This document shows positions 2,520-38,166 of a DNA stretch of 38,166 nt, piece after piece. The stretch's first letter is position 1, and the number at the start of each line of letters is the position of its first letter. The DNA lies in the IMG/VR virus record IMGVR_UViG_3300017709_000009, positions 1 through 38,166 of that record. The stretch is one strand, 5' to 3'. This DNA is from a virus. A program made the position numbers and the translations under genes. The notes under the pieces are model-generated. The model searched no databases. It was not told the DNA's origin and saw only the letters and a program-made list of their open reading frames with translations.

Positions 2520-4274
2520 ATGAATAAAGGAGCAGCTTATTGGATGGATCTAAAATATTTTGATGATGAAGATCCAATTTTTTTAGCACAAGTTCAAAGA
2601 GGGATAACTAACTTTGTAAAAATCCTAACAGGAAAAGATATTCCTGTAGAATATGCTACATCAGGTGATTCTATGACTGATGGAGAAATAGTTTATATTG
2701 CTTCTAATCTTAAGGAAGATACAATAGATTATACAGTAGGGTTAGCTCTTCATGAAGCTTCTCATGTTTTATTAACAGATTTTGAATATCTTAATAAAGA
2801 AAAAGGAACCGTACTAAAAAGAGTACATAATATACCTGAAGAAGATCATGATAATGTATTTACTTTGATTAATTTTGTTGAAGATAAACGCATAGATAAT
2901 TTTGTGTACTCAACCGCTCCTGGATATCAGTTTTATTATGAACAACTTTACCGTAAATCTTTTTATAATGAAATTGTAGATGAAAATCTCCAAAATGATA
3001 TATTTAGAACTCCATCTTGGGATTCATATTTTTTTAGAATAATTAATATATTTAATCGTAATTCTAATCTTGACGCCCTACCTGGCTTGAGAGAGGTACG
3101 CGATTTACTCACGTTTAATCGCATAAGATCAATGCAATCTACGCGTGATGCTGTAGAAGTAGCTGTTAAAATTTATAACATAATTAAACCACATATTCAA
3201 GATGAAGAAGAAAAGGAAGATGGAGAAGATAAACCTTTAAACAATCAAGAATATAAAACTCGTGAACAGGTAGAACGTCAAAAGAATTTTATTAACTCGC
3301 AATATAGAAAAAAACGTGTTCATAAGAAGGTAAAAGAACAAGTTAATAAATTAGCTAATTCAGATACTAAAATTAATAATTATCCTTTATCTAAAACTAC
3401 ATCTATCCCAACTCTAATCACTAAAAACTGGGAAGAATATTTTACAGGTCCCTTTGGTCATAATGAAGAATCAGTTAATAAAGGGTTATTTTTAGGAAAA
3501 CAGCTTCTTAAAAAACTTAAAGCTAGAAATACAGTTAAAAAAGATATTTTCGAAAACCAAAAAAAAGGTAAACTAAATTCTTCTAAATTATACCAAGCAC
3601 CTTTTAATGAAAACCTATTTTACAGGATAGAAAAAGAAGATTACAAAAATGTTTTTATCCACATATCATTAGATCTTAGTGGTAGTATGAGGGGAGAAAA
3701 ATTAGCCCAAACTATCCAAACAGCTGTAGCTATAGCTTATGCTGCTTGTAATATAAAAGGATTTGATGTAGAGATTTCTTTAAGAGGTACTATTGATCCT
3801 AATAAATCTAAATCTATGCATTCGTCTAATCAAGTTCCTATATTAGCTTATGCTTTTAATTCTAAAAAGGATTCTACAAAAAAATTAGAAAAATTTAAAA
3901 AACTTACTGTGTGCGGTATGACACCCGAAGGAATATGTTTAGATCAAATTAGAAAAGATTTGCCTTCTCCTTCTTACAATCAAGAAGTTTATTTAGTAAA
4001 TATATCAGATGGGTTGCCTAATATAAGTTCAGCTTCTTATAATTTTAGTACAGCTATTAATCATACGGCTAAAGTAGTTAATGAATATAAAAAGGATAAT
4101 ATTGGATTATTGAGTTATTTTATTCATGATACTTGGGATAAAACACAAAAATCAGAATCAACATTTAAAAAAATGTATGGAAAGAGTGCTAAATATATTG
4201 ATGTTAATAATGTATCTTTAGTAGCTAATACAATTAATAATCTTCTTCTTTCAAATACTATTAAGTCTTTTTAA
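2520..4274 (+). CDS. Metallopeptidase-like and von Willebrand factor A (VWA) domain protein
   Basis: 584 residues. The N-terminal part carries HEASH (residues 78-82) in LALHEASHVLLTDF, an HExxH zinc-binding motif, with nearby EEDH and FVEDKRID segments that could supply further ligands. A charged linker (about 225-290) leads to a VWA domain. Its MIDAS motif is DLSGSM (385-390), with a later conserved Thr in GMTPEG and Asp in ISDGLPN. The architecture recalls CobT/VWA proteins that partner MoxR-type AAA ATPases; no such ATPase is in this window. No signal peptide is seen, so it is probably cytoplasmic. A chaperone, maturation or host-takeover role is possible. Domain calls are good; function is open. 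Confidence 0.8.
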   Translation: MNKGAAYWMDLKYFDDEDPIFLAQVQRGITNFVKILTGKDIPVEYATSGDSMTDGEIVYIASNLKEDTIDYTVGLALHEASHVLLTDFEYLNKEKGTVLKRVHNIPEEDHDNVFTLINFVEDKRIDNFVYSTAPGYQFYYEQLYRKSFYNEIVDENLQNDIFRTPSWDSYFFRIINIFNRNSNLDALPGLREVRDLLTFNRIRSMQSTRDAVEVAVKIYNIIKPHIQDEEEKEDGEDKPLNNQEYKTREQVERQKNFINSQYRKKRVHKKVKEQVNKLANSDTKINNYPLSKTTSIPTLITKNWEEYFTGPFGHNEESVNKGLFLGKQLLKKLKARNTVKKDIFENQKKGKLNSSKLYQAPFNENLFYRIEKEDYKNVFIHISLDLSGSMRGEKLAQTIQTAVAIAYAACNIKGFDVEISLRGTIDPNKSKSMHSSNQVPILAYAFNSKKDSTKKLEKFKKLTVCGMTPEGICLDQIRKDLPSPSYNQEVYLVNISDGLPNISSASYNFSTAINHTAKVVNEYKKDNIGLLSYFIHDTWDKTQKSESTFKKMYGKSAKYIDVNNVSLVANTINNLLLSNTIKSF

Positions 4275-4831: not shown

Positions 4832-5197
4832 ATGAAGTATCTTGTTTCGATTTTATCTTTTTTACTTGTTTCTACTAATGCAAGTAAACCCATATTAGAA
4901 GAAAAATCACCTTTATGTGGTGATGATATATGTGTTGTACAATTTAATGCAGCATTTAATTCAGCAAATGAAGTAAATTGGTTAAGTGAATTAACAGACT
5001 GTTCTACATCAACAGTAGATATTATGGCTGACCCAAGTTTACCACAAGATTATAAAATAGTTGTTGTACCTACCATTCTAGTCCTAGAGGACGGGGAGGA
5101 AGTAGCGAGGTTTCAGGCTAACATTATGATGACGATGGAAGCAACTCGTGAAGAGGTGCAAGAATCCATAGACGAAATCATAATGAGCAAATTTTAA
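4832..5197 (+). CDS. Exported thioredoxin-fold protein without CxxC
   Basis: 121 residues. A signal peptide (MKYLVSILSFLLVSTNAS) is followed by a thioredoxin-like pattern: a beta-strand CVVQFNAAF, a helix, then VVVPTILVLEDGEEVARF, which matches the cis-proline strand-turn-strand of thioredoxins. The position where WCxxC should sit reads FNAAFNSAN, so the redox pair is missing. Cysteines occur instead as CGDDIC near the mature N-terminus and one in LTDC. The stop overlaps the next start (TAATG at 5195-5199), coupling it to the large Cys-rich exported protein. It may chaperone or bind that protein rather than oxidise it; this is inference. Confidence 0.6.
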   Translation: MKYLVSILSFLLVSTNASKPILEEKSPLCGDDICVVQFNAAFNSANEVNWLSELTDCSTSTVDIMADPSLPQDYKIVVVPTILVLEDGEEVARFQANIMMTMEATREEVQESIDEIIMSKF

Positions 5198-8100
5198 TGA
5201 AACATTTATTAACCTCCCTCTTATTACTTATTGGTCTTACATGTTTGGCTCAGCCAACATACTTAGATCTTACAATCCAACTTGATCAATATCCACCAGA
5301 AACTGCTTGGATAATAACTCAAGGAACTGATACAATTATTACTAGTCCTAGTTATGCTAATACACCTCCTAATACTTTAGTTGAACAAAGAGTATTCTTA
5401 AATTCTAATACTGATTATACATTTACAATTGTTGATACCTTTGGGGATGGTATTTGTTGTGAATTTGGAGATGGATTTTTTATAACTGCTAATAATTGTG
5501 ATGGTGTAATATTTGAAGAATATGAATTTGGATCATCCATAGCTAGCTATGATTTTAATTTAACTCCTTGTGAATTACCTACCTCAGATATAACATTTAG
5601 GGTTAATTTAGCTAATGCACCACCAGAAATAGAAACCCCAGGTGTATTAGGTAACTGGAATGGTTGGCAAGTTATTCCTATGATTTATGATGAAGATGAT
5701 GAATGGTTTGTAACAATTCCTATCCAATCAGGAAATTATATTTGGAAATTTGCTGACTTCAATAACCCAGATTTACAGGAATTACCTGTTGGTGTCGGTG
5801 AAAATTCATGTTTTTTATTTGATGGTAATGGATTTGTAAACAGAACTCTAGAAGTAATTGAAGAAGAAAATCAAATGCTTCTTAACTATTGTTGGGAATC
5901 ATGTTTACCTTGTGGTGCTATTCCTGGATGTTCTAACCCTAGTGCTATTAACTGGAGTCCTTGGGTTAATTTTGATGATGGGTCATGTGTAACACAAAAT
6001 ATTGATTGTCCTTTAGGTGAAGCACCAATTGAAATAGTAGTTACTCCTGATAACTTCGGACCAGAAACTAGTTGGATTTTATTTGGGGACCAAGGAGGTA
6101 TAACTTCCGCTCCTATAGGCACGTATTCAGGAGCAGCACCAGGTATCCCAATTTCTACTGCTATATGTCTACCTATAGGAGCTGATTATGATGTAGTAAT
6201 AGCTGATTCCTATGGTGATGGATTATGTGCTTCATGCGCTACTAATAACCCTAACTTAGAGAGTGGTAATGTTCAAATATTCAACTGTAATGGAGATACT
6301 TTATATAACCTCCAAGATGAATTTCCTGATGGAGATTTTGGATACGAAACTTTATCTACTATGTTTACCCCAACAGTATGTGGTGATATAACTGATATAG
6401 TAGGTTGTACCGATCCTGATTTTATAGAATACAATCCAGATGCTATTATAGATAACCCACTTGAATCTTTTTGCGTTACTCCTATTGTATTAGGATGTTT
6501 AGATGAAACCCAATTTAACTATAATCCTGAAGCTAACACTGAAGATGTTATTCAATTTTGTGATTATACTTTAACTATTACAGATGGTGTTGGAGATGGT
6601 TGGTTTGGTAGTTGGATTGGAATACACCAGCAATGGTATTTTTCACCCCAATACCAAATGGGTCCTAATGATGGTACTGAATTATCATTTAATGTACCCG
6701 GTTTAGATGCTTCTAAAAAAACTTATATATATTTCTTTACTACTCCACAATCAATTAATACTATTCAACAGTGTGGATTTACTTTAACCAATCCTGGGGG
6801 TGATGTTATTTTAGATATTCCTTTCTTTAGTGCAGTTCCTTTTACTGAAGAAAGTGGATGGTATGTTTATGAAATAGATTTATATTGTGGTAATACATGT
6901 GAAGAATTTATTTATGGTTGTTTAGATAATATAGCAGTTAATTATAATGAAGAGGCAAATACTGAAGATGAAAGCTGTTATTATCAACCAGGTTGTACTA
7001 GTGCTGGTTATTTAGAATATTATACTCAAGGATTTGAAGCCGATTTTGATAATGGTAATTGCCAAACATTAGCAGTATTTGGTTGCACAGATATAGATGC
7101 CTTTAATTTTGATGAAGGAGCTAATGTAGACAATGAAACATGTGTTGATAAAATATTTGGTTGTACTAATGAATTAGCATTCAACTATGATCCATTAGCT
7201 AACACTGATGATAACTCATGTATACCCATTATAGAAGGTTGTACTAACCCTGAGGCATTAAATTACACCCTTGAAGCCAATACAGAAGACTTCAGCTGTA
7301 TACTTCCAATTTTAGGTTGCACTGACCCAACATCATTTAATTATAACCCACTAGCTAATACAGATGATAATTCATGTATAGAAGTAGTATTTGGGTGCAC
7401 AGATGAAACTGCGTTTAATTATGATCCTCTAGCTAATACAAATGTAGGATGCGAATCTATAGTTGAAGGATGTACTGATATAGAAGCCTTTAATTTTAAT
7501 GTTAGTGCTAATGTAGACGATGGATCATGTGAATCTATAGTATTTGGTTGTACAGATGAAACTGCTTTTAACTACAACCCAAATGCTAATACGAATGTTG
7601 GTTGTGAATCCGTAGTTGAAGGTTGTACTGATGAAGAAGCTATTAATTATGACCCCCAAGCCAATACTGATAATGGTACTTGTGAAGCTGAAATATTTGG
7701 TTGTACCGACCCTACAGCATTTAATTATGATGAGTTAGCAAACACAGATAATGGATCTTGTGAAGAAATAATATTTGGATGTATAGATGAAACAGCCTTT
7801 AATTATGACCCATTAGCTAATACAAATATAGGGTGTGAATCCTTTATTGAAGGTTGTACTGACCCATCAGCATTTAATTATAACCCAGAAGCCAATACTG
7901 AAGACTTTAGTTGCATTGAAGTAATATATGGTTGTACTGATCCACAAGCAGCTAATTATGATGAAGAAGCAAATACAGATAATGGTACATGTGAAACAGT
8001 ATATGCTAACTGTGTAGATTCAGTAGTTGAAACTTATAATTTATTAGAATTAGAAAGTGAATGCTTTGCTTGGGTAATTGATGTTAGCCCAAGTTGTTGT

Positions 8101-8400
8101 AATAATGAATGGGCAGATGGGTGTCAAACCATTTATAATTACTGTGATGAAAATACAGTAACTAATATAGTAGAGTTTGGTGAAACCCAAATAATTGTAT
8201 TCCCTAACCCAACAAGAGATCGCATAAATATCGCAAGTAATTTGCGTATAAACGCAGTCCTCTATAACTCCATAGGACAGCCCGTGTTACAAGAAACTAA
8301 CGTAAATCAATTAGATTTAAGTCAATTTGAGGCAGGTATTTATAATTTAATCCTAACTTATAATGATCTTATGTTTACTAAAAAAATTGTTAAACAATGA
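5197..8400 (+). CDS. Large exported Cys-rich repeat protein with T9SS type A sorting domain
   Basis: 1067 residues. A signal peptide (MKHLLTSLLLLIGLTCLA, then QP) is followed by a beta-sandwich module (about 20-127). Next comes a CBM/starch-binding-like module containing GVLGNWNGWQVIPM (about 145-205). A second copy of the first module follows, the two sharing PET(A/S)W and D(T/S)(F/Y)GDG(I/L)C. There are then about 17 GC(T/S)D-x-xAFNY-x-x-xANTDDGSC-type repeats, twelve contiguous at residues 629-932. A CCNNEW...C segment precedes a C-terminal domain starting VFPNPTRDRINI at 1001 and ending FTKKIVKQ, the hallmark of type IX secretion cargo. The product should cross the inner membrane by Sec and be displayed or released by the host T9SS. 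A role in adhesion, surface masking or superinfection exclusion is inferred. Confidence 0.88.
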   Translation: MKHLLTSLLLLIGLTCLAQPTYLDLTIQLDQYPPETAWIITQGTDTIITSPSYANTPPNTLVEQRVFLNSNTDYTFTIVDTFGDGICCEFGDGFFITANNCDGVIFEEYEFGSSIASYDFNLTPCELPTSDITFRVNLANAPPEIETPGVLGNWNGWQVIPMIYDEDDEWFVTIPIQSGNYIWKFADFNNPDLQELPVGVGENSCFLFDGNGFVNRTLEVIEEENQMLLNYCWESCLPCGAIPGCSNPSAINWSPWVNFDDGSCVTQNIDCPLGEAPIEIVVTPDNFGPETSWILFGDQGGITSAPIGTYSGAAPGIPISTAICLPIGADYDVVIADSYGDGLCASCATNNPNLESGNVQIFNCNGDTLYNLQDEFPDGDFGYETLSTMFTPTVCGDITDIVGCTDPDFIEYNPDAIIDNPLESFCVTPIVLGCLDETQFNYNPEANTEDVIQFCDYTLTITDGVGDGWFGSWIGIHQQWYFSPQYQMGPNDGTELSFNVPGLDASKKTYIYFFTTPQSINTIQQCGFTLTNPGGDVILDIPFFSAVPFTEESGWYVYEIDLYCGNTCEEFIYGCLDNIAVNYNEEANTEDESCYYQPGCTSAGYLEYYTQGFEADFDNGNCQTLAVFGCTDIDAFNFDEGANVDNETCVDKIFGCTNELAFNYDPLANTDDNSCIPIIEGCTNPEALNYTLEANTEDFSCILPILGCTDPTSFNYNPLANTDDNSCIEVVFGCTDETAFNYDPLANTNVGCESIVEGCTDIEAFNFNVSANVDDGSCESIVFGCTDETAFNYNPNANTNVGCESVVEGCTDEEAINYDPQANTDNGTCEAEIFGCTDPTAFNYDELANTDNGSCEEIIFGCIDETAFNYDPLANTNIGCESFIEGCTDPSAFNYNPEANTEDFSCIEVIYGCTDPQAANYDEEANTDNGTCETVYANCVDSVVETYNLLELESECFAWVIDVSPSCCNNEWADGCQTIYNYCDENTVTNIVEFGETQIIVFPNPTRDRINIASNLRINAVLYNSIGQPVLQETNVNQLDLSQFEAGIYNLILTYNDLMFTKKIVKQ
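7081..7992 (+). repeat. Twelve tandem ~25-residue GCTD...ANTDDGSC protein repeats
   Basis: Within the T9SS-type gene, a unit of about 76 bases is repeated twelve times, each encoding GCTDxxAFNYxxxANTxxxxC. Two sub-types alternate in places: an A unit ending ANTNVGCES and a B unit beginning VEGCTD and ending DDGSC or similar. The protein sequence is well kept while third-codon positions differ between copies, so these are not recent DNA duplications. Five more divergent copies lie upstream in the same gene. Confidence 0.9.
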
Positions 8401-33300: not shown

Positions 33301-35104
33301 ACAATTTCCTTTGTTAACTATAGATGCTACAGGTTCTTTAGTAGAAATAGGGGCTACTGGTTCAGTACCTTCAACACCTTCTCAACTTAGTGCTAGTTAT
33401 GAAACCACAGCTAGTGCAGATGGAATATATGTCTTTAGTGGGTTAAATATCAGTAATAATTTTTCTTCAGCATTTCCTCGAATTAGAATATACTCAGGAA
33501 GTACATTAGTAACTGCTTCATTTGGGGATATAAATCTTCTTGGCGCTGGATCTACCCACACTGGAATATTATTGGCATCTAGTCCTATTGGTAATGATAC
33601 AAATACATTACCCACAAATAATTCAGTTGAAGTAGGGTATTTTAAAGCAGGCGATTCTATGAAAATAGAATTAGATGCTGTAGAGTCGGATGGTAATACA
33701 TTAAAACCCACTCCCTCAACTGAATCTGCTAGTTTTGCACAATTAGGTGTATATTATATTACATCAAGTACCCAAGTGCTTGATCAAGAAGCTACATTAC
33801 CTAATTTTTTACCAGCATATAATAAACTCCAAATACAAAGCCCCCATACTAGTTTTCCCTTCACCACAGGGAATCTTACAGCTAGTATAGTAAGTACTAG
33901 TACTAATGTTGTATATGCTACTATAGATCAACATTTATTTATTACAGCTTCGGCCCCTTCAACTCAATCAAACACATTTATAAATGTTCCTTTTGTAGTT
34001 GAAAAAACATATGATTTTAGTGCTAATTCAAGATATATAATTTCTCAGTCTTTAAACTATAATTTTACTAATGGTAATAAATTAATTTGGAGAATTGCCA
34101 GAACAGAAGACGAAGGAACCTTAAGTAATATACTTGACCACAATTACGATTTTATATCGGATAGTAATAATATTTTCAGTAGTGAAAATCAATGGGTAAC
34201 AGCATCAGCTACTATAGATACTACCACTGGTGGTGAATATAAATCCCAATTCTTGTTATATAATCTTGTCCCTAATTATACTGATAATGCCTCTGTAGGA
34301 GACTTTTTAAAGTTAGCTAGTGCCTCCTTAGAAGAATATAAACCTTCAAATAGTATAGTTCGCACAGGGGGTCAATTATTTGATTCATCTAGTTTAGTAA
34401 AAATTAAATTAAAAATATCAGATAACACACCACCATTTAATGTGGGTAGTACAAACCCCCAAACTTATACTTCAACCTCTATAGAGGAAAATCCACCCTC
34501 TACTGATGAATTTACAGTCCAAAATCCATCACTTATTCAATTAAATTCTCCCATATTAGTAATAGATGGTGGTGAAATCACAGGATCTAGAGATAATGAA
34601 TATAATTACTACAAGTATACATCTTCATTAAATGTAATAAGTGGCTTTAATAATGCTATGGAAGGTGGTATTCTAAATAATTTAGGAGCCTATTCTAATG
34701 CATTTAATATAAATACCGCCACTTCTAATACAATGTCTGTTGATAATGAAGTATTATTATTAGAAAATACCACTGCCAATGTTAATTATGTAACAGATAG
34801 TAATATAGATAATTTTAACCTTCAGTTTAAAAATAGTCATTTAATATTTGAGCATGAATATCAATGTACTGTTGGAGAAGATGAGTATAATTTTACACTA
34901 AATCCTTCAGCTAGAATACAGAAAAATACTACAGAAGATGGAGAATTAGCTAATTTTGCAACTGGTTCAAATTTTAAACCATATGTAACTACTATTGGTT
35001 TATATAACGAAGAAGGAGAGTTATTAGTAATAGGTAAATTAGGTCAACCAATTAAAATGTCGGATGAAACCGATACCACATTTATTGTAAGATTCGATAC
35101 ATGA
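30305..35104 (+). CDS. Giant tail-fiber-like protein with LamG/lectin domain
   Basis: 1599 residues. The N-terminus (MFVYKKLKASDVSRTPFEAH) is probably the virion attachment end. Residues about 210-395 form a LamG/concanavalin-like domain: SGYVKSPHSNNINFGSNQDF, FTISFYYKTP, YHIACVKTGSNLHIYLNGNL, ANLYIGNRGG and GNISQLMIFNKGL. Then come several Ser/Thr/Asn-rich beta domains with no enzyme motif, and a C-terminal module shared with the preceding gene. It is the best candidate for host glycan or surface recognition. Its stop overlaps the next ATG (ATGA at 35101-35104). Confidence 0.75.
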   Translation: MFVYKKLKASDVSRTPFEAHKQYNITANNTSSLGIDFFSARFSSESKDLFSLNDPNETKKYFQLDKFYYNKDFGNNIGGLEYEDQETRLYKELNIISIPQGLFGSGIQKSTLNLFETYIDDSKGNLYDSSIALTNYPTDKERVLYIAPVKGFKLSNLNKDYNTGYSIVNAPSTLDKVIYDDSLYLNTVEYISSSITHLSDLNCTGINLESGYVKSPHSNNINFGSNQDFTISFYYKTPTLSGTKYLIAKSYSKTVINSPENGNTRITGSLQPTEIDAGTSYPFEVYLTDNQINFARADQDITSLATSSAVLSDDTLYHIACVKTGSNLHIYLNGNLTGSDSDNTNITKNKANLYIGNRGGTRSEYNSAGGNISQLMIFNKGLNNTQISNVSSSITGLPYIGNVFYENGLITITSPKFTNTLGNINESAYGQVTIGPTYGVPSDFDLRVLKSEGGIIFSSSFRAYEFSLEEDNVFSDTLYNTIDFQNTGSLGSFISSSNQTGDSVVGNFSLFEPQPSQERSETFSITAFKTFPQHNGGIYNTPQTVDILSTSQFLHPSSSTGGFNPTDSTNIEAKTTVWAVSASESSTLVNTNIKASASQFLIDESFPTSDSSISDTEFSYDQNTANSGALYINNYAIDGLVLTGSLNNMPNYLGFIKNTVGVSGINANGDTRIGIPIGGTSGGGNGFINFRDGGYTLLNANADIQIVDVPEGSNASLSFKMTPKFTNSDSGTFKQVTYKIRSGSVVIASDSATIPFATTPLSVTPLTVTRFISASDEYDMTIDMGGDPSLEMTEATLEVISQLPEEGKLNKVALINNSIVLDDRDNDRTKKYTVQIDEIHTSASNQATGPNFNSITEGTLKITLERVFQGVATNITSSLYGPATVSGSFFKFIDLDNIDGNGTINTHLSYLRTKIELIDTSSENTLQAFSPGEGFYIKNFRVKEISGSIIAQTTANLGSSTSFITNEPVPYMNTLGPVSEYTNSTFNITSVTSPTQIVSQFPLLTIDATGSLVEIGATGSVPSTPSQLSASYETTASADGIYVFSGLNISNNFSSAFPRIRIYSGSTLVTASFGDINLLGAGSTHTGILLASSPIGNDTNTLPTNNSVEVGYFKAGDSMKIELDAVESDGNTLKPTPSTESASFAQLGVYYITSSTQVLDQEATLPNFLPAYNKLQIQSPHTSFPFTTGNLTASIVSTSTNVVYATIDQHLFITASAPSTQSNTFINVPFVVEKTYDFSANSRYIISQSLNYNFTNGNKLIWRIARTEDEGTLSNILDHNYDFISDSNNIFSSENQWVTASATIDTTTGGEYKSQFLLYNLVPNYTDNASVGDFLKLASASLEEYKPSNSIVRTGGQLFDSSSLVKIKLKISDNTPPFNVGSTNPQTYTSTSIEENPPSTDEFTVQNPSLIQLNSPILVIDGGEITGSRDNEYNYYKYTSSLNVISGFNNAMEGGILNNLGAYSNAFNINTATSNTMSVDNEVLLLENTTANVNYVTDSNIDNFNLQFKNSHLIFEHEYQCTVGEDEYNFTLNPSARIQKNTTEDGELANFATGSNFKPYVTTIGLYNEEGELLVIGKLGQPIKMSDETDTTFIVRFDT

Positions 35105-35526
35105 TAGTACCAAATAGTTATGAAGAATTTCCAGAAGGTACATATGGGTATGTTTATCAAACAACCCACATCCCCACTGGTAAAAAATATATTGGTAAAA
35201 AATCGCTAATATATAATTTAAAGAAAAAATTAGGTAAAAAAGAACTAGCACTCCACGAGGGTAAAGGTCGACCACCTAAATTTAAAATGGTTCAAAAAGA
35301 AAGCGATTGGAAAACCTATTATGGTTCACACCAATTTATTAAGGAAGAAGTTAAAAAAGGTAATCAAGCTGATTTTAAACGTGAAATACTCCAACCAGCT
35401 TTCTCAAAAAAGGAACTAACTTATTTAGAAAATAAATATCTATTTAGTTTAGAGGTTTTAGAAAGTAATGAATATTTAAACGACAACATTGAAGGACGAT
35501 ATTTTAAGAAGGATTTTGATATTTGA
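35101..35526 (+). CDS. GIY-YIG-like endonuclease-fold protein
   Basis: 141 residues. YGYVYQTTHIPTGKKYIGKK (about 14-33) has the paired motifs of the GIY-YIG family (here GYVY and KYIG), followed by WKTYYGSHQFIKEEV, FKREIL and LTYLENKYLF, in which E may be the metal-binding glutamate. The segment order is that of Seg-like phage endonucleases, though the first motif is not a perfect GIY. It is coupled to the fiber gene by ATGA and to the primase by TTGA. It could be a free-standing homing endonuclease or a domesticated nuclease. Confidence 0.7.
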   Translation: MIVPNSYEEFPEGTYGYVYQTTHIPTGKKYIGKKSLIYNLKKKLGKKELALHEGKGRPPKFKMVQKESDWKTYYGSHQFIKEEVKKGNQADFKREILQPAFSKKELTYLENKYLFSLEVLESNEYLNDNIEGRYFKKDFDI

Positions 35527-36498: not shown

Positions 36499-38166
36499 AT
36501 GAAAATAGCTTTATTGCCGGGTGGATTTAAACCACCTCATTTAGGTCATTATAATATGGCAAAATATTTAGCGGATTTTGCCGATAAAGTTATAGTTCGT
36601 ATTGGGCAAAAAGAAAGAGAGGGTATAGGGTCTAAATTAGCTTTAGAAGTATGGAATTTTTATAAAGAGTTTGATCCTGACTCACGTGCTAAAAAATTAA
36701 TTATAAGTGTAGCACAATCACCTTCTCCTGTAAAAGATGTGTATGATTTTGTAGAAACAATAGCCCCTGAAGGATCTACAGTTATTTTAGGTATGGGTGA
36801 AAAAGATGCTAAAGATGGGCGTTATAATAATATCCCTAAATTTGCTGAACCTCGCAATATTAATGCAGAAATTGAATTAGTTCCACCACAAGCCGGGGGT
36901 ATTTCAGGTACTCGTATGAGAGAAATTATTAAATCTAATAATAAAAAAGAATTTTTTAAATATATTCCAGAATTTTTACCCGAAGAAATTAAAGAAGAAC
37001 TTTGGACTAAACTAGTAGATAGTACTATGCCTACTAAGGTAGATGAAATGATGATGGGTACTATGAATAGAGAGGAAATGGCCAAACATATGGCTAATAT
37101 GAAAAAGTTACGTAAATTCTTTTCTAAACAAGGAGACCAAATGTATCAAATTCCTGATAAGTTAACCAAAGGATTACGCAGAAAATTATATGAAGGTAGC
37201 AAATATGATGAAGGTACTGTAAAGATACAACGCCTTATATTTACTGAATTTAAAGACCAATTAGGTAAGTCTTTTAAAAACAAAGAATGGTCTGAATATT
37301 GGTTAGAGGGACCAGAATATGTGATATTTTTTGATATAGGTGTAGAATTTATACCTAAAAAAATGTTAATCCCATATTCCATAGAAGGTGATGCCGGTGA
37401 GGATGATATACAAATCAAAATTACCTATAATCCCGAATCATTCCCTGAATCATTTAATGACCTTAATGCAGAAATTAAAGAAACAGTAAGACACGAATTA
37501 GAACACTTAGCTCAATATAATTTTCCTAATAAAGAATCATTTGAAAAATATAAAGGTAAAATACCATTTTATAAATATCTCATTTTAAACCATGAAACCC
37601 CAGCATTTGTTAGAGGCTTAAATAAAAGAGCTAAATTTAAAAAAATTAGTTTAAGTGCTGCATTTGAAGAATTTTTTGATGATTTTGTAGATCAATTTAA
37701 GAGTGAAGATGAAATTAACACTGTAAGACAAACTTGGACTAATTACGCTCAAGAAAATCTACCGGGGGTTAATTTAAAAGAAGGTGATACCTACGAAAAA
37801 ATGGCTGCTAAAGGTAAAAAAGCGGGCAATTTAAAACAGGGTACAGTTAGAAAACGTTTAAATATCCCTAAAGGCGAAAAGATACCTTTATCATTAATCA
37901 ATAAAGAGTTATCACGTCTTAAAAAAATGGATAAAAGGAGTGCTAAAAATCAAAAATATTATAAAGCACTTACATTAGCTAAGACGCTGAAAACTACAAC
38001 TCATAAAGAAAACATAGACCCTAAAGCTCAAAAGAAACATAAAGGTAAAGCTGCCCCCTATGGTTCCGCTTATGAACCCGTAGATGAAAATTTCCCACCA
38101 TATAAGGCAAACCAAGTATCCCAAGTTAGATATAAAGCAAGCGATACATTTACTAACGATCGTAAA
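36499..38166 (+). CDS. Nucleotidylyltransferase and metallopeptidase-like fusion (3' end outside window)
   Basis: An open frame of 556 codons from ATG 36499 to the window edge. Residues 1-145 are a HIGH-type nucleotidylyltransferase: LPGGFKPPHLGHYNMA with H14-L-G-H17, and ISGTRMR (135-141), the T/HxGH and ISxTxxR motifs of NMN/cytidylyl transferases. A helical linker follows. Near 320-345, VRHELEHLAQYNF supplies an HExxH zinc motif (332-336). A basic C-terminal region contains AAKGKKAGNLKQGTVRKR and KNQKYYKALTLAKTLK. The transferase could act in NAD metabolism or capping; the peptidase could process phage or host proteins. It follows the primase after a 28-base gap. Confidence 0.8.
   Translation, partial: MKIALLPGGFKPPHLGHYNMAKYLADFADKVIVRIGQKEREGIGSKLALEVWNFYKEFDPDSRAKKLIISVAQSPSPVKDVYDFVETIAPEGSTVILGMGEKDAKDGRYNNIPKFAEPRNINAEIELVPPQAGGISGTRMREIIKSNNKKEFFKYIPEFLPEEIKEELWTKLVDSTMPTKVDEMMMGTMNREEMAKHMANMKKLRKFFSKQGDQMYQIPDKLTKGLRRKLYEGSKYDEGTVKIQRLIFTEFKDQLGKSFKNKEWSEYWLEGPEYVIFFDIGVEFIPKKMLIPYSIEGDAGEDDIQIKITYNPESFPESFNDLNAEIKETVRHELEHLAQYNFPNKESFEKYKGKIPFYKYLILNHETPAFVRGLNKRAKFKKISLSAAFEEFFDDFVDQFKSEDEINTVRQTWTNYAQENLPGVNLKEGDTYEKMAAKGKKAGNLKQGTVRKRLNIPKGEKIPLSLINKELSRLKKMDKRSAKNQKYYKALTLAKTLKTTTHKENIDPKAQKKHKGKAAPYGSAYEPVDENFPPYKANQVSQVRYKASDTFTNDRK

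Follow-up and report, generated by a model that had tools for sequence, protein, structure and literature searches.

The window analysed here is a 38,166-nt stretch of viral DNA that makes up the entire record IMGVR_UViG_3300017709_000009, and because the window is the whole record, the polyprotein gene at its 3′ end is cut by the contig end. The full gene, whose recovery the initial annotation had advised, was obtained from contig L002, which is 100% identical to the window open reading frame (ORF) across all 556 aa and encodes a complete protein of 1045 aa (L002 4209-7346); beyond the window's end, it continues with a DPKxGTGKK cassette, a WW leader and a ligase-like domain. The gene is more than a two-domain fusion enzyme, and the window holds the start of a large marine-phage polyprotein, with the following features (slash, cut position).

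36499-38166, plus strand: truncated polyprotein ORF, 556 aa, open at the 3′ end
36499-37047, plus strand: cassette 1 (aa 1-183), NMNAT/PPAT-like nucleotidylyltransferase, from HxGH and ISxTxxR motifs, Foldseek, weak NCBIfam matches and the structure model
37045-37047, plus strand: predicted cut after E183 (KVDE/MMMG), from upstream contexts and predicted disorder
37048-37194, plus strand: cassette 2 (aa 184-232), short basic segment MMMGTMNREEMAKHMANMKKLRKFF..KLYE, a conserved block with variable neighbours
37192-37194, plus strand: predicted cut after E232 (KLYE/GSKYD), from contexts and an LxE likewise placed in stand-alone zincins
37195-37782, plus strand: cassette 3 (aa 233-428), zincin-like metallopeptidase domain, from invariant residues, the model and 429 relatives
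37492-37506, plus strand: HELEH zinc motif (aa 332-336) within helix 319-341, from sequence, conservation and the model
37780-37782, plus strand: predicted cut after E428 (NLKE/GDTYEKM), from upstream contexts
37783-38010, plus strand: cassette 4 (aa 429-504), small basic cassette GDTYEKMAAKGKKAGNLKQGTVRKRL.., whose position differs among members, always after E
38011-38088, plus strand: cassette 5 (aa 505-530), short segment NIDPKAQKKHKGKAAPYGSAYEPVDE, with E before it in every context
38086-38088, plus strand: predicted cut after E530 (PVDE/NFPPYKA), from upstream contexts
38089-38166, plus strand: cassette 6, cut by the contig end, NFPPYKANQVSQVRYKASDTFTNDRK, continuing in L002

A Bacteroidota host is probable, since relatives occur in Flavobacterium phage immuto and in a contig assigned by binning to a Flavobacteriales genome. 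The relative in immuto (vB_FspM_immuto_2-6A), a cultured phage, has 907 aa. Elsewhere in the window, positions 5197-8400 encode a secreted-looking protein of 1067 aa in which many repeats of the form GCTDPTAFNYNPLANTDDNSC were seen by eye, and its C terminus (FPNPTRDRINI..KKIVKQ), also judged by eye, resembles a type IX secretion sorting domain, which fits a Bacteroidota host. Both PHROGs (phrog_447) and the phage immuto annotation give the 141-aa product of 35101-35526 the name "NAD synthetase"; Pfam identified it as a SegE GIY-YIG endonuclease (2.7e-23), and the NAD synthetase label looks like a misannotation. This gene adjoins the polyprotein gene in all four relatives with listed neighbourhoods. 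At 2520-4274 lies a 584-aa protein of von Willebrand/CobT-like appearance that matches phrog_1576 and phrog_5298, "cobalamin biosynthesis protein".

Domain assignments in the open reading frame

An AlphaFold2 model covered aa 1-428, and a second structure prediction covered the C-terminal domain. The NMNAT-like part of the ORF contains GGFKPPHLGH and ISGTRMR motifs, and its model, with pLDDT mostly 71-92 through residue 170, matched NMNAT/PPAT structures in Foldseek (best E 6.6e-6). The domain HMM comparison proposed in the initial annotation gave partial support: nucleotidylyltransferase models matched only below cut-off, both for PF01467 in Pfam (E 0.012) and for coaD, cyt_tran_rel and NMNAT in NCBIfam (6e-6 to 9e-5 across the first ~40 residues), and Pfam searched with the zincin domain alone returned chance matches only. 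Motifs and modelled fold place the N-terminal ~180 residues, by prediction, in the NMNAT/PPAT nucleotidylyltransferase superfamily, whose substrate here may be NMN, pantetheine or CTP.

For residues 233-428, comparison of 16 sequences with identity to the window down to 25% revealed that RHExEH and a downstream Glu were invariant. The initial annotation had raised the possibility that HELEH lay in a coil with no zincin fold; in the model, the motif occupies a confidently predicted helix (319-341, local pLDDT ~76-91) behind one helix and four strands, and C-terminal helices complete the predicted zincin-like domain, which is mostly of high pLDDT. No zincin structures appeared among the 50 fold matches listed by Foldseek, in which the NMNAT domain filled every place, so the assignment rests on motif, conservation and topology, and a PDB sequence search with the zincin profile gave no match. 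This evidence from sequence and model points to a zincin-like metallopeptidase domain. Relatives of the domain numbered 429 in viral contigs, and it also occurs in other phages as a stand-alone ORF of 213-239 aa, with which tblastn against cultured phages found no match.

In the window's relatives, a second zincin, of HELIHH/HEMIHH type, has a 131-aa gene of its own located downstream of the polyprotein gene; in phage immuto it sits inside the polyprotein, indicating exchange between gene and cassette (L022 17497-17892; L024 9119-11842).

These assignments bore out the original reading of one polypeptide that carries both a nucleotidylyltransferase and an HELEH motif, with an NMNAT-like N-terminal domain and a separate zincin-like domain. 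The basic C-terminal region described alongside them does contain small basic cassettes, but it is not the protein end, consisting of two small cassettes and the start of a truncated third.

Cassette architecture and residues at the borders

Scanning with the N-terminal domain recovered 518 relatives encoded on viral contigs, and the 47 near-complete members ranged from 609 to 1410 aa. The shortest members (L058) hold little beyond NMNAT, a basic segment and the C-terminal domain, and longer members have cassettes inserted between NMNAT and the C-terminal domain in changing order. Pfam identified Fe/Mn superoxide dismutase (1e-28), plastocyanin (4e-16), DUF192 (1e-22), SET (4e-7), GNAT (5e-5) and DUF5661 cassettes, and HAD-like and Pol-beta-like segments were recognised by motif only. 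As in polyvalent proteins, single polypeptides join several unrelated enzymatic domains, drawn from SOD, plastocyanin, GNAT, SET, DUF192, DUF6267 and NMNAT. Plastocyanin-type and superoxide-dismutase cassettes within phage polyproteins were seen in L057, L074 and L010; should the processing model set out below be correct, they would count as injected redox proteins.

The C-terminal domain belongs to one of two families, a GGAAGHMAHPF type with conserved ligase-like motifs (VKIDGVN, HEGVVIRD and FKxTGKF) or DUF6267, which carries VKWDGAP, and alignment of the two (hhalign probability 94) is confined to the first KxDG motif and a leader that both have. Pfam RNA_ligase matched the C-terminal domain with E 0.077. 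A Foldseek search with the GGAAGHMAHPF-type domain gave nothing significant, several of the best-ranked entries being RNA ligases, and PDB sequence searches returned nothing meaningful for the ligase-like profile and only chance-level lipase and KaiC matches for DUF6267. These observations suggest that the GGAAGHMAHPF-type domain may be RNA-ligase-like. Parts of the architecture also occur separately: in cyanophage S-PM2 (L112 3447-5226), the DUF6267 region spans two annotated genes, the second fused to a cytidylyltransferase, and in Pelagibacter phage HTVC033P (L195 1495-1785), a DPKxGTGKK-type cassette forms a stand-alone protein of 96 aa.

Nearly every cassette border reads [L/I/V/M]-x-E with the predicted cut point after E, whatever lies upstream. 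For eight recurrent cassettes with 165 distinct upstream contexts, P1 was Glu in 154 and [ILVM]xE was present in 139, against ~3 expected by composition. At the borders of the window ORF, E stood at P1 in 19/19 distinct contexts before MMxGTM (18 with ILVM at P3 as well), in 24/24 before GDTYEKM (19 with ILVM at P3) and in 16/16 at the E530 border (9 with ILVM at P3), and upstream of the zincin, [ILVM]xE was found in 18 of 24 distinct contexts. Some borders lacked the P3 hydrophobic residue (THKE/N, MRKE/G and KKE/), which counts against a polyprotein account, and the upstream border of cassette 5 (THKE, cut after E) is a weaker site for this reason. Since [ILVM]xE also occurs inside folded domains in L002, the motif alone is insufficient to define a cut.

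Considering that the eight anchors had been picked after the pattern was seen, we performed an anchor-free test with 1157 alignment-breakpoint contexts among 69 distinct polyproteins and 2000 nulls of random positions. The motif lay within 3 residues of 44.2% of breakpoints, compared with 11.5% in the null (maximum null 15%), the breakpoint counts, like the border counts, being of non-independent events because contexts share descent. Enrichment was 3.8 for Glu and 0.4-1.4 when ten other residues were substituted for it.

These data bear on whether the protein is left intact, its Glu-containing borders serving as flexible linkers or as points of recombination through which domains shuffle more easily. 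Shuffling is evident and linkers are predicted to be disordered: junctions 183 and 232 both lie within predicted disorder, with pLDDT <50 at residues 177-197 and 200-234, and the whole of residues 177-234 between the domains is disordered in the AlphaFold2 model. Against this, P1 and P3 are constrained and P2 is free, P1 entropy being 0 for most cassettes and P2 entropy usually ~2.5 bits, and the enrichment is for Glu only. Codons differ at P3, P1 and P1′, and therefore the constraint acts on protein rather than DNA; this codon variation ruled out a DNA-level recombination signal at the borders. Neutral linkers or DNA homology would yield neither a protease-like profile nor the matching site seen in stand-alone zincins, and we regard an intact multidomain protein as unlikely. 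The borders instead fit the substrate motif of the gp21/S77 prohead protease, with V and M also used at P3, which would make them sites of cleavage.

The distribution of the zincin speaks to what might cut such borders. A polyvalent protein could be processed by its own zincin, which would autocleave the chain either ahead of injection or afterwards, a mechanism suggested for P1 DdrB and N4-like proteins; zincins are the commonest polyvalent-protein domain and proposed processors (PMC5512222), and the zincin catalytic residues are conserved in the window's family. However, the RHExEH zincin is optional, missing in 29 of the 47 near-complete members, and LxE/GGAAG is kept in all 24 zincin-less members that end in the GGAAG type; the GDTYEKM cassette is still present in 8 zincin-less members. 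In addition, gp21-type serine proteases are known to be specific for LxE, and a site of this type is present in the capsid protein as well. With sites kept where the zincin is gone, it cannot be the general processor, and we rejected self-processing as the main mechanism, rating the idea as quite improbable.

The same counts undercut two proposals of the initial annotation. A functional pairing of nucleotide transfer and proteolysis is not supported, the zincin being optional and two predicted cleavage sites lying between the domains, and neither is an NAD enzyme with its own processing domain, as border sites remain where the zincin is missing. A simple bifunctional NAD enzyme was likewise rejected.

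Prohead protease, capsid protein and virion proteins

T4 prohead protease gp21 cuts after L/I-x-E (PMC9026906). An S77 protease (PF03420) was detected in Flavobacterium phage immuto and in each of the three longest contigs that carry the gene. Of 18 further contigs, 8 also encode it, some of them alongside a zincin-less polyprotein. In the remaining 10 of these 18, S77 was not detected; many are fragments, but one is 214 kb. Two S77-positive contigs, of ~280 and ~290 kb, carry the stand-alone zincin. The window record ends short of the head module; in one relative (G003), ~14 kb separate the polyprotein from the S77 gene further downstream.

The major capsid proteins of four such phages have V-x-E followed by A (QLVNE/A, QLVQE/A or QIVSE/A) aligned with FLTE/A of T4 gp23. 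The T4 gp23 cut falls at FLTE/A, after residue 65. A cut after residue 65 of T4 gp23 agrees with its 65-residue propeptide (PMC9026906). Because the capsid protein of this lineage has a V-x-E/A site, V appears to be accepted at P3.

Leader peptides may offer a link to the capsid. Nearly all of 25 short stand-alone zincin ORFs have an N-terminal leader, with LxE directly before the polyprotein-type zincin start (for example, MIKLRNILSE/GKYD, and MRQQIIESLIGRITNRLINE immediately before RKSD), and these leaders resemble T4 capsid-targeting sequences. The leader KLKDILNE is common to two unrelated genes of one phage in the group. The window protein begins directly with NMNAT and has no N-terminal targeting leader, which counts against the polyprotein account; a conserved LFSxxWW..ITEEILxE segment, cut after E, precedes both C-terminal domain types and may serve as the capsid-targeting leader of the window's family.

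By mass spectrometry, cytidylyltransferase T4-GC190 was found in S-SM1 virions (PMC3037559) and a cytidylyltransferase in S-CREM2 virions (PMC10665884). Both are related domain types in T4-like cyanophages, other than the window's protein. The virion-delivered effector suggested in the initial annotation thus gains indirect support from prohead-protease-type sites, capsid-targeting-like leaders on free zincins and related cyanophage cytidylyltransferases in virions. A metabolic fusion outside the virion, which would join NAD synthesis to RNA repair inside infected cells and give the zincin an unrelated effector role, would accord with the adjacent genes for the DUF6267 ligase-like protein and cytidylyltransferase near replication genes in cyanophages, and both activities are known phage themes (PMC9503650). 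It accounts poorly for the related cytidylyltransferases in purified virions and for relatives' leader peptides that resemble T4 capsid-targeting sequences, and we hold it to be very improbable.

Taking together the modular architecture, border motif, conserved active-site residues, protease in relatives and homologous capsid-protein site, we infer cleavage, packaging, ejection and enzymatic roles for the cassettes, and consider it probable, for the account as a whole, that members of the family are polyproteins which are packaged in the capsid, split by the prohead protease where cassettes meet, and injected at infection. The gene of a T4-type marine phage would be translated as a single chain of ~1045 aa, which would enter the prohead core, probably via the LFSQxWWLDVITEEILNE segment preceding the C-terminal domain. 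A gp21-type S77 protease would then cleave after [L/I/V/M]-x-E at the borders to produce NMNAT, zincin, several small basic proteins and a C-terminal ligase-like nucleotidyltransferase, and the released proteins would remain with DNA in the head and be ejected at infection, where NMNAT might restore NAD or change nucleotide pools and host-cleaved RNA might be repaired by the ligase-like part. Because every cassette carries its own cut site, payloads could be swapped among phages.

A broader proposal, for which we see the case as evenly balanced, is a general capsid-delivery system in which any segment between two [L/I/V/M]-x-E sites is packaged, freed and injected, with cassette-wise payload exchange among phages of marine Bacteroidetes and other hosts. 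If the polyprotein account is right, tailed phages use a true polyprotein strategy in which the capsid-maturation protease also releases swappable injected proteins, and the hundreds of very large "cytidylyltransferase" proteins seen in marine viromes would be accounted for. Annotation would then mean splitting such proteins at [LIVM]xE borders before naming the pieces, and the injected effector repertoire of uncultured phages would become readable from sequence.

Comparison with known systems

In content, the family most resembles polyvalent proteins (PMC5512222); in processing, its nearest counterparts are T4 internal head proteins. Like the window's family, polyvalent proteins are large, combine unrelated enzymatic domains, frequently include zincins and are predicted to be injected with DNA (Iyer et al. 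2017, PMC5512222), and the analogy to viral polyproteins was already made for them in that work, in which the terms NadR and marine are absent. Their processing is credited to an embedded zincin or, rarely, to fused assemblin-like peptidases (PMC5512222), whereas the borders in the window's family are of gp21 type and independent of the zincin, cassettes shuffle as motif-bounded units, and NMNAT stands at one end with a ligase-like domain at the other. Our literature search, whose scope left most subscription papers outside, returned no earlier account of phage polyproteins cut by prohead proteases.

The T4 internal proteins IPI-III and Alt are likewise cut at L/I-x-E by the S77 protease and have short N-terminal leaders, and T4 internal head proteins include many small basic proteins that are packaged and ejected (PMC9026906). 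Each of them has a separate gene and one leader (Alt is trimmed at both ends), whereas the window's family joins many units into a single chain and has a site at every border. In giant phages such as SPN3US and phiKZ, too, a gp21-related protease cleaves certain head proteins after Glu, and these ejection (E) proteins leave the head at infection; the accessible text of the reports describes cuts that remove propeptides and does not report a multi-enzyme chain split into units (PMC10052503, PMC7411985). Finally, cyanophage cytidylyltransferase T4-GC190 and DUF6267 (T4-GC71) are of the same domain types as those of the window's family; in cyanophages they are mostly encoded by separate neighbouring genes, whereas the window's lineage joins them with a variable store of cassettes.
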